DNA from: Cytophagaceae bacterium
Lineage (GTDB): Bacteria; Bacteroidota; Bacteroidia; Cytophagales; Spirosomataceae
DNA length: 64,000 nucleotides
Reading direction: 5' to 3'
NCBI GenBank assembly: GCA_027488335.1
Contig: JAIYBU010000085.1
Coordinates: 1-64,000, forward strand
Shown: positions 61,512 to 64,000 of the stretch, piece by piece
Layout: each line of letters opens with the position of its first letter
Position numbering within the stretch: the stretch's first letter is position 1
Position numbers and translations under genes: made by a program
Notes under the pieces: generated by a model
Told to the model about the DNA's origin: nothing
What the model saw: the letters and a program-made list of their open reading frames with translations, nothing else
Databases searched by the model: none

Positions 61512-62135
61512 ATGAAAAAATTAATCCTATTCCTTTCTGCAATTGTAGTGTTAGCCTCTTGCCAAAAGAAAGAATATGCTTCTTTCCAAAAGAGTAGCAC
61601 ACCCACTTATACAGTGGTTAAAAAACAAGTAGTAGCAGCTCAACCATCAATGGATGTTGCCATTGTCGAACAAGCAACCGCTTCGATTGTCGCCCCAACA
61701 GAAGTGACATTAGCAGCTGACAATTCAGTAACAGTATCCTCTTTGAATACTGAAACTACAACAGTTCCTGCAGTAACAGAAAGCCAAGTAATGACTTTCA
61801 ACGAGCAAGCAGTAAATGCAGAATTTGAAAAATTGAATAAGTTAGAGCAATATGTTGCTGCTCACGAAGGAGTAACTATTGAGGATGTAAAAGAAACAGC
61901 ACTTACAGAAGACCTAAAATTAGATACAAATGTAACTAATGCAGTCGTAGCTGGAGAATTACCATTGGGTATTCCTGCTTTCTGGTGGGGTTGTGTACTT
62001 GGCTTACTTGGAGTATTAGCAGTTTACTTAATCACTGATAAAGACAAAGAGCAAACTAAAAAAGCATTATATGGTTGTTTAGCATGGACTGTTCTTTGGG
62101 CAGTTTACTACTTTGTAGTATTAGCTTCATTCTAA
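61512..62135 (+). CDS. lipoprotein with two C-terminal membrane helices (paralogue A)
   Basis: A 207-residue protein. The ATG at 61512 gives MKKLILFLSAIVVLASC-Q, a lipobox signal; an open frame to 61404 would add an unsupported extension. A threonine/valine-rich middle (about 25-100) leads to FNEQAVNAEFEKLNKLEQYV and then a C-terminal part with two hydrophobic helices (IPAFWWGCVLGLLGVLAVYL and LAWTVLWAVYYFVVLASF) joined by DKDKEQTKKALYGC. It is about the same length as the next gene and shares its lipobox, FEKLNK motif and C-terminal block. A lipid anchor plus two TM helices implies an inner membrane lipoprotein. No named family is recognised. A terminator follows, so each paralogue may be transcribed separately. 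Confidence 0.7.
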   Translation: MKKLILFLSAIVVLASCQKKEYASFQKSSTPTYTVVKKQVVAAQPSMDVAIVEQATASIVAPTEVTLAADNSVTVSSLNTETTTVPAVTESQVMTFNEQAVNAEFEKLNKLEQYVAAHEGVTIEDVKETALTEDLKLDTNVTNAVVAGELPLGIPAFWWGCVLGLLGVLAVYLITDKDKEQTKKALYGCLAWTVLWAVYYFVVLASF

Positions 62136-62158
62136 TAGTAAATATTAGCATCCTCAAA

Positions 62159-62190
62159 AATAGCCCAAATCAAAAGACTGGGCTATTTTT
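62159..62190 (+). terminator. terminator between the two paralogous lipoprotein genes
   Basis: AATAGCCCA and TGGGCTATT form a 9-base perfect stem followed by TTTT. The TATTTTTG inside its 3' flank (62184-62191) also matches a -7 promoter box, so the next gene may start from the terminator itself. Confidence 0.7.
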
Positions 62191-62220
62191 GTTTATTGAT
62201 AATCACAAAAATCTAATGTT

Positions 62221-62856
62221 ATGAAATCGACAATTATTTCTACAATTGCATTGGTTTTAGCACTTACTTCTTGTCATCAAAAGCAATTTGCTTATGTACA
62301 GAAAGGTAAAGTAGAAAACTATGAGTCTTCGAGAATAGTAATCCAACGCCAAGTTTCTAATCAGGCCAAGAATGAAATAATAGGCACAACAACTAATGAT
62401 ATTACTGAAACAAATCAACTGACTGCTTCGGAAGTGTTGACAAAAAATGTTGAAATATCGTCATTGAATAATAATATTTCGGAAAATGAAGTTTTAGTAT
62501 ATAACCAAGAAAACATAAATACCACTTTCGAAAAACTTAATAAAGTTGAGGCATTTGTTGAGCAAAATACTGAAGCAAGTTTTGAAACAATAAAAAATAC
62601 AGACCTATTAAAGGATATTGAACTTGACACAAATACTTTAGACAATGTGACAAAAGATACGGAGTTACCTTTAAATATTCCAGCCTTTTGGTGGGGATGT
62701 TTCTTAGGGGGATTAGGTATCTTACTTGTCTATGTAATTACTGAAGATAAAGAACAAACCAAAAAAGCTCTCTATGGATGTTTGACTGCTGGTGGAGTAG
62801 TGGCGGTTATTTACATTGTCTTGATTGCAATCGGATTGAGTGCAGGAACATTTTAA
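62221..62856 (+). CDS. lipoprotein with two C-terminal membrane helices (paralogue B)
   Basis: A 211-residue lipoprotein (lipobox ALTSC-H) paralogous to the preceding gene. The middle region is Asn/Glu/Thr-rich, then FEKLNKVEAFVEQNTEASFE, and the C-terminal block LPLNIPAFWWGCFLGGLGIL, TEDKEQTKKALYGCLTAGG and a final hydrophobic helix. The conserved features shared by both copies are the WWGC and YGC cysteines and the DKEQTKKAL loop, which would face the same side. Function unknown. It may share a transcript with the two genes downstream (gaps of 39 bases, then an overlap). Confidence 0.7.
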   Translation: MKSTIISTIALVLALTSCHQKQFAYVQKGKVENYESSRIVIQRQVSNQAKNEIIGTTTNDITETNQLTASEVLTKNVEISSLNNNISENEVLVYNQENINTTFEKLNKVEAFVEQNTEASFETIKNTDLLKDIELDTNTLDNVTKDTELPLNIPAFWWGCFLGGLGILLVYVITEDKEQTKKALYGCLTAGGVVAVIYIVLIAIGLSAGTF

Positions 62857-62895
62857 GAGCAAGATTCGCTGAGATTTTACTTGAAATTGGATTTT

Positions 62896-63633
62896 ATGAA
62901 AAAAAACATTTTTCTTTTATTAATGACATTTATTTTGGGTGTTCAGGTTGGTAACGCTCAACAATTTTATCGAATCAAATCTGATGTTTCTATCAAAGAT
63001 AAACTCTCGAATGGTTCGTTTCGTTTGACCGTCGGGAAGGTTTATTATGATAAGACCTCTCTAAAAGTTATTTATAAACTTACTTTTCCACAAAAAGAAA
63101 CTATCATTATTAAAGATACTACACTTTACAAAATCACGAAAGATAGTGTTTCTACACAAACCGTTTTGGCATCAAATGAATTTTCGATATTTCATTTATC
63201 ACTTTCTGGAAAACTGGCCGATTATGGATTAAATTCAGGAAATGTGGCAAAAATTTACAAAATATCAAAAGTTGAAAAAGATAAAGATGGTAGAGTAATA
63301 ACAACTTGGAGCGTCGTTGAAAAACAGCTAATGAAAACGCTCGGAAAAATAAAAATGGCCAATGTCAACAAAAAATTAGATGCGATTGCCTTTTATGATG
63401 CCAACGAAAAACTATTGAGTCAACAGTTTTTTAAAGAATATTCTAATTTCAACGGTGTGGAGTTTCCGAAGCAGGTAACTCAAATATCCTATAATTCAGA
63501 TGGTACACAAAACATTCAACAAACAACTTATAAAAATATTATCATTGACCAAGAGGATGAAAACGAAACCTATAATTATCCTATTCCTGTTATTAAATCT
63601 AAGTCTAAACAATCAACTAAAGGCACAAAGTAA
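62896..63633 (+). CDS. exported protein with LolA-like features
   Basis: A 245-residue protein. The ATG at 62896 gives signal peptide MKKNIFLLLMTFILGVQVGN. The rest is beta-rich: FRLTVGKVYYDKTSLKVIYK, AIAFYDANEKLLSQQFFKEY and TTYKNIIIDQEDENETYNYP, loosely resembling the incomplete barrel of LolA-type lipoprotein carriers; this resemblance is weak. The last 26 codons overlap the following YidD-domain gene in another frame. Its position after two lipoprotein genes is what makes a lipoprotein-handling role worth testing. Confidence 0.55.
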   Translation: MKKNIFLLLMTFILGVQVGNAQQFYRIKSDVSIKDKLSNGSFRLTVGKVYYDKTSLKVIYKLTFPQKETIIIKDTTLYKITKDSVSTQTVLASNEFSIFHLSLSGKLADYGLNSGNVAKIYKISKVEKDKDGRVITTWSVVEKQLMKTLGKIKMANVNKKLDAIAFYDANEKLLSQQFFKEYSNFNGVEFPKQVTQISYNSDGTQNIQQTTYKNIIIDQEDENETYNYPIPVIKSKSKQSTKGTK

Positions 63634-63952
63634 GGCAGAGATAAATTTGCTTAGAGGGGTTATTCAGCCACCACAAAAACGAACATATACTGAAGCTAAA
63701 GAAAATCGTAACGAGGTTCAGTATTTGTTTTCGGGTTTATTTCTTTTTTATAAAACTTTCTTTTCTTCGCAAGATTTGACCGTCTGCACTTTCAGCCCGT
63801 CTTGTTCCGAGTTTGGAATTTTAGCCGTTAAAAAAAGCGGAGTCGTGATGGGCGGAATCAAAACAATGGATAGGCTCACTCGCTGTAATGGTTTGAGCCC
63901 CGAAAAATACACAATGGATTTTAAAGCAAAATTACTGATAGATAAACCTTGA
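63557..63952 (+). CDS. YidD-domain protein with an N-terminal signal peptide
   Basis: A 131-residue protein. Residues about 60-117 carry the YidD domain: LFLFYKTFFSSQDLTVCTF, CTFSPSCSEFGILAVKKSG and MDRLTRCNGLSPEKY, with the three family cysteines in C-x5-C-S-E and RC-N. YidD normally aids membrane protein insertion from the cytoplasmic side and lacks a signal peptide. Here the start at 63557 gives MKTKPIIILFLLLNLSLNNQ ending in LKAQ, a good signal, so the domain should be periplasmic. AAGAGG just upstream could be its ribosome binding site. The first 77 bases overlap the previous gene. Confidence 0.8.
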   Translation: MKTKPIIILFLLLNLSLNNQLKAQSKAEINLLRGVIQPPQKRTYTEAKENRNEVQYLFSGLFLFYKTFFSSQDLTVCTFSPSCSEFGILAVKKSGVVMGGIKTMDRLTRCNGLSPEKYTMDFKAKLLIDKP

Positions 63953-63954
63953 CG

Positions 63955-64000
63955 ATGCAAAAAAAACTTTTAATACTTTTTATATTTATATACAGTACAA
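63955..64000 (+). CDS. start of an exported protein (partial)
   Basis: An ATG two bases after the YidD-domain stop opens a frame reading MQKKLLILFIFIYST to the window edge, which looks like the beginning of a signal peptide. The tight spacing suggests translational coupling and a fifth gene in the cluster. Nothing more can be seen. Confidence 0.5.
   Translation, partial: MQKKLLILFIFIYST

Follow-up and report, generated by a model that had tools for sequence, protein, structure and literature searches.

The described systems closest to this locus are the YidD family, the LolA and LolB carriers, and the DUF5683/TM2 proteins. YidD (PF01809/TIGR00278) is annotated as a "membrane protein insertion efficiency factor", and the E. 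coli protein assists Sec/YidC membrane insertion according to Yu et al. (2011) as cited in PMC8082313. In Flavobacterium johnsoniae, the flexirubin locus includes the genes for the paralogues LolA2 and LolB2 (PMC11885536), which provides a precedent for a LolA paralogue tied to a single locus, and for a third Bacteroidota paralogue, LolA3, no role is known (PMC11885536, PMC13103446). The locus studied here draws its parts from known families, and the module that they form is apparently undescribed. In the literature searched, which lay largely outside subscription journals, we came across no report of either an exported YidD or the module, and the possibility that the system is new is a real one.

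The window, that is, the whole 64,000-nucleotide stretch analyzed, belongs to contig C73 of an Emticicia genome, and the contig extends 5.8 kb further to the right of the window edge. The module lies on the + strand in the order lipoprotein A (207 aa, 61512..62135), a hairpin (62155..62191), lipoprotein B (211 aa, 62221..62856), a LolA-fold protein (245 aa, 62896..63633), a YidD-domain protein that we refer to as YidD2 (131 aa, 63557..63952), and a TPR protein, TPRa (275 aa), which occupies 63955..64000 in the window and ends at contig position 64782. Beyond the window, on the same strand, follow a second TPR protein, TPRb (contig 64793-65632), and a small beta-barrel-like gene (contig 65758-66276). 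Judged from sequence, every module product bears an export signal. These gene positions agree with those given in a preliminary description of the cluster, including the gap of 2 bp between the YidD2 stop codon and the next start, and extension to the right identified the fifth exported gene of that description as TPRa.

YidD2 and the LolA-like gene share 77 bp, an overlap that falls on the signal-peptide codons of YidD2. The hairpin between the lipoprotein genes (-18.7 kcal/mol, z = -4.06) is followed by a T-rich tail and is a probable intrinsic terminator, so that lipoprotein A probably forms a transcription unit of its own. The same genome encodes a canonical YidD on contig C17 (open frame of 82 aa) and a housekeeping LolA (PF03548) on contig C147, and thus YidD2 and the LolA-like protein are extra copies. 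The 5' ends of TPRa (63955-63990) and TPRb (64793-64828), both of which code for signal peptide, share 97% DNA identity, suggesting a recent exchange, while the two proteins have otherwise diverged.

YidD2 shares the domain and Cys pattern of the YidD family and scores above the cut-offs of both family models (PF01809, 57.7 bits against 27, E=1e-15; TIGR00278, 46.4 bits against 40), but it differs from canonical YidD in several respects. Canonical YidD is a short protein of the cytoplasmic side, with the domain at its N-terminus and no signal peptide, whereas YidD2 has a signal peptide, MKTKPIIILFLLLNLSLNNQLKAQ, and a spacer of ~50 residues ahead of the domain. Signal peptides were identified in nearly every YidD2 orthologue, most with the xxAQ/SQ sites usual for Bacteroidota, and they were also present where YidD2 does not overlap the upstream gene (L062, L063, and L060). 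The Cys motif lay at or beyond residue 40 of the open frame in all 65 motif-bearing YidD2 proteins, in contrast to canonical YidD, in which the first Cys motif is typically at about residue 23-33 and there is no AQ/SQ signal site. Before the third Cys region, a DR motif was found in 63 of 67 YidD2 proteins and in none of 30 canonical ones, which have K/HR in its place, and the GG..DPVP tail showed the opposite distribution (0/67 against 28/30). In a tree built from only 64 alignment columns, YidD2 and canonical YidD fell on opposite sides of one branch (support 95/86, recovered in 96% of bootstrap trees). The first two Cys of the YidD domain are nearly universal in YidD2 and the third is mostly kept. 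In the YidD2 proteins of families f36 and f54 (L089, L090, L101, and L112) the third Cys is replaced, with FTRD.N instead of RCN.

YidD2 also differs from canonical YidD in adjoining, or being fused to, a TPR protein. Two independent fusions of YidD and TPRa into one protein were identified (L077, 372 aa; L086, 400 aa), both with the layout signal peptide, YidD, TPR, and PGAGYVYSG hairpin. A structural model of a fusion showed an array of TPRs and, predicted with confidence, a C-terminal helical hairpin, the helix being broken at PGxG (pLDDT ~97); the YidD part was of low confidence (pLDDT 36-62) and, consequently, no YidD-TPR interface was predicted. MAFFT misaligned a set in which rows of YidD2 and TPRa were mixed beneath the fusion, and this alignment was left out of the folding. 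Both TPRa and TPRb carry conserved PGxG hairpins, the C-terminal region of TPRa reading PGSGRMY...FYLGNIYGS. The PGxGQ/K-x-Y-x-G motif is common to this region and to DUF5683/TM2 proteins (PF18935, PF05154), although the Pfam matches are sub-threshold (PF18935, 17.2 and 19.2 bits for TPRa and TPRb against a cut-off of 26.7), and TPRa and TPRb differ from those proteins in having the hairpin fused to an exported TPR domain and in having a second motif, FYxGNIxGS. The C-terminal region of TPRa is moderately hydrophobic, below a simple TM threshold, which makes its embedding in the membrane uncertain. The possibility that the module is plasmid-borne was discarded, as TPRa had no match in 72,556 plasmids.

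Gene order was studied in 11-kb stretches around YidD2, and it was found to be kept far beyond the genus. A second, longer YidD was present in about twenty genomes among the first 59 relatives, and the order LolA-like, YidD2, TPRa, TPRb was repeated in family after family. TPRa adjoined YidD2 or was fused to it in 68 of the 69 YidD2 or fusion loci read across Bacteroidota; the sole exception, L045, is a second YidD2 copy in a genome with the full module elsewhere. The TPRa profile used for reading loci included one unrelated row (the gene downstream of YidD2 in L045), and a clean alignment was used for the genome search. The genome in question (G044, family f9) has its LolA-like and YidD2 pair on contig C1 (L045) and the complete locus on contig C10 (L054). 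In two of the 68 loci, both from one genus of family f14, a further gene separates TPRa from YidD2 (L068:5156-5755 and L069:5400-5990), and in L068 its product has a VTT (DedA-type) domain. The five-gene order with a tail protein related to the window lipoproteins was also found in Mariniphaga (L134) and in family f44 (L084 and L085), the latter being outside the class of the window and its tail protein a weak match (~E 1e-6). The loci of families f36 and f54 consisted of YidD2-TPRa-TPRb, lacked LolA-like and tail genes, and usually had an acyl-CoA dehydrogenase gene on one side and ACT-domain or other genes on the other. A second YidD match was present in 26/26 sampled f36 genomes and in 11/13 sampled f54 genomes. 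TPRb was absent from L114, L115, L117, L040, and the fusions; together with the f36 and f54 loci this leaves the YidD2-TPRa pair as the only universal part.

The co-occurrence of these genes followed the same pattern. Across 293 genomes of the order, YidD2 was identified in 32, all of which carry TPRa, and TPRa was identified in 33 (Fisher p = 6e-42, phylogeny ignored); the TPRa-only genome (G125) had a short match without the N-terminus. The LolA-like protein gave strong matches in 17 genomes of a 213-genome sample, all 17 YidD2-positive, and one weak extra match (G054) was to a PF17131 LolA-like protein of another kind. The tail protein was found in 10 of the 293 genomes, in six genera, and all ten have YidD2. 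Eight of its 21 copies were away from the module, including the sole copy in G044, and these unlinked copies occurred only in YidD2-positive genomes. Counted by genus, which is the more cautious figure as the p-values ignore phylogeny, the association of the tail protein with YidD2 had a hypergeometric p = 2.5e-5. As far as sequence distribution indicates, the LolA-like and tail proteins depend on YidD2-TPRa in the sampled order.

The LolA-like protein had been read as a secreted LolA relative, and structural modeling bore this out. The protein is Sec-exported and its AF2 model (pLDDT 90.8) confidently predicts a LolA fold, with best Foldseek matches to the LolA superfamily structure 3buu (E=1.9e-11, probability 1.00) and a further match to 9tp6, LolA3 of P. 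gingivalis (E=3.3e-10). Its sequence kinship to the known carriers is weak: the window protein had no Pfam match, including to PF03548, and a search for solved relatives by sequence returned only 4z48, a DUF1329 protein (E=0.014). Among 36 LolA-like members, PF17131 matched 13 at E <= 0.01 (best 2.2e-5; below the cut-off among the scores listed) and PF03548 matched two at the same E-value. The predicted fold and Sec export are common to the LolA/LolB carriers, and the binding of a paralogue to one locus is shared with the flexirubin LolA2. The LolA-like protein is nevertheless module-specific and distinct from the housekeeping LolA, having partners other than those of LolA/LolB, LolA2/LolB2, and LolA3 and, unlike the known carriers, occurring only alongside YidD2 in the sampled order.

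The two lipoproteins of the window each have a lipobox (LASC in A, LTSC in B), two C-terminal hydrophobic segments (residues 156-174 and 189-207 in A), FWWGC, and DKEQTKKALYGC, as first described. Two features taken from this pair did not extend to the family: the lipobox is not family-wide, and WWGC is not invariant, since across 19 aligned relatives the invariant core is WG...G...G, with the second W and the Cys variable. An ordinary Sec signal takes the place of the lipobox in the tail relatives from Lacihabitans, Jiulongibacter, L048, L066, and L134, and the combination of lipobox and long linker, present in lipoprotein A, was confined to Emticicia-type members, other genera having a shorter tail protein. 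Lipoprotein A matched Pfam LPAM_1 (24.7 bits, cut-off 20), as did only four of the 19 aligned relatives. The A and B paralogues are a local duplication, seen as a pair in one other Emticicia locus only (L053), with A the top tail-protein match within its genome. The lipoproteins are a lineage-specific form of an accessory partner and not part of the system core. Sequence searches for solved relatives gave chance matches only for the tail protein and none for YidD2. An assignment of the locus to a defence system was rejected, PADLOC having given one weak match only, to lipoprotein A (E=0.0024). Replacement of the WWGC protein elsewhere by another exported hairpin protein was not supported either: such proteins accounted for 4/40 upstream neighbours, compared with 8.8% of genes in the background, the candidate substitutes judged by eye being PEGA lipoproteins (L117 and L086), the L040/L071 family, and L115. 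A stand-alone, Sec-exported WWGC tail protein of 141 aa is encoded in the genome of the window far from the module (L140:4887-5312, contig C122).

Together, the sequence comparisons place the core of the module at YidD2-TPRa(-TPRb), which the LolA-like gene joins in Bacteroidia-type loci. The preliminary description had seen in the cluster an envelope machine that it did not recognize. This was a fair reading, given that neither gene-order conservation nor the position of the YidD2 start contradicted it, but it misplaced the core, which is mostly outside the window. That the module works as a machine is something we infer.

We consider the chances about even that this is an envelope-biogenesis module, a device for membrane insertion or trafficking from the periplasmic side whose building blocks are a displaced YidD and a specialised paralogue of LolA, because YidD2 and TPRa are adjacent or fused and co-occur, the LolA-like and tail genes keep to YidD2 genomes in the sampled order, YidD2 forms a separate branch, the LolA-like protein has a LolA fold by model, and LolA2/LolB2 offer a precedent. 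In such a module, TPRa and TPRb would sit in or on the inner membrane by their C-terminal PGxG hairpin regions with their TPRs in the periplasm, and YidD2 would dock on TPRa at the periplasmic face, the TPRs serving as scaffold and YidD2 as the membrane-active part. The groove of the LolA-fold protein would take up a hydrophobic moiety and carry it to or from the TPRa/YidD2 complex. The WWGC tail protein, which takes the form of a lipoprotein in Emticicia and of a Sec-exported hairpin protein in other lineages, may be a dedicated partner or substrate, and in tail-bearing species may itself be the hydrophobic cargo. The fuller proposal, that the exported YidD, the TPR-hairpin scaffold, and the LolA-fold carrier insert or assemble hydrophobic tail proteins into a membrane from the periplasmic side, is tentative and we regard it as rather doubtful. 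As LolA-like and tail genes are absent from the f36 and f54 loci, a cargo model of this kind would cover at most part of the distribution.

The main rival has a lipid or lipid-linked compound, such as a pigment, a polyprenol, or a lipid modification, as the cargo of the module instead of a protein, with the LolA-fold protein as periplasmic lipid carrier and TPRa, TPRb, and YidD2 as an inner-membrane docking complex. We consider this possible but less likely than not. The LolA fold is common to many lipid binders, and the VTT gene between YidD2 and TPRa in L068 would be in keeping with lipid movement, albeit the insertion is confined to one genus. Some DedA proteins are lipid transporters. The flexirubin locus, with its LolA2/LolB2 (PMC11885536), points the same way, but no biosynthetic genes recurred next to the module among the loci read, and f36 and f54 keep the rest of the module without the LolA-like gene. 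In addition, genomes with the tail protein have the module even where the two are not linked, a distribution more in keeping with a protein partner.

An alternative that we think unlikely is that YidD2-TPRa-TPRb is itself the system, for instance a stress-sensing, peptidoglycan, or divisome scaffold, to which the LolA-like and tail genes were added later for separate jobs. This would account for the retention of YidD2 in f36 and f54, where every locus read had the three-gene form, and for the presence of the other two genes in only part of the distribution. It does not sit well with their never occurring without YidD2 in the sampled order, nor with the five-gene order in lineages as far from Emticicia as Mariniphaga and f44. 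Finally, that YidD2 is an ordinary cytoplasmic YidD starting downstream, its signal-like segment an artefact of overlapping frames, is hardly credible and was rejected: the signal codons do overlap the LolA-like gene in Emticicia and the family models do still name the protein as YidD, but against this stand the conserved signal peptides at non-overlapping loci, the position of the Cys motif, the fusions that start with a signal peptide directly ahead of the YidD domain, and the separate canonical YidD in the same genome. The preliminary description had noted both the signal peptide and the possibility of a later, cytosolic start; the orthologues indicate that the signal peptide is genuine.

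YidD was put forward as an insertion factor and its role has been unclear ever since; an exported YidD locked to a TPR protein, in two lineages even fused to it, offers a separate route to what the YidD fold does. The module is conserved and has clear marker motifs, and its parts would at present be annotated only singly as "YidD", "TPR protein", or "hypothetical". Its LolA-like protein is a further LolA paralogue that is tied to a single locus.

A YidD fusion of another kind was found in a 0.7-Mb genome of family f21 (G122), where an in-frame fusion joins a YidD of canonical type to a complete alanine racemase (L094:4773-6098); the predicted protein has 441 aa and Pfam matches to both YidD and alanine racemase.
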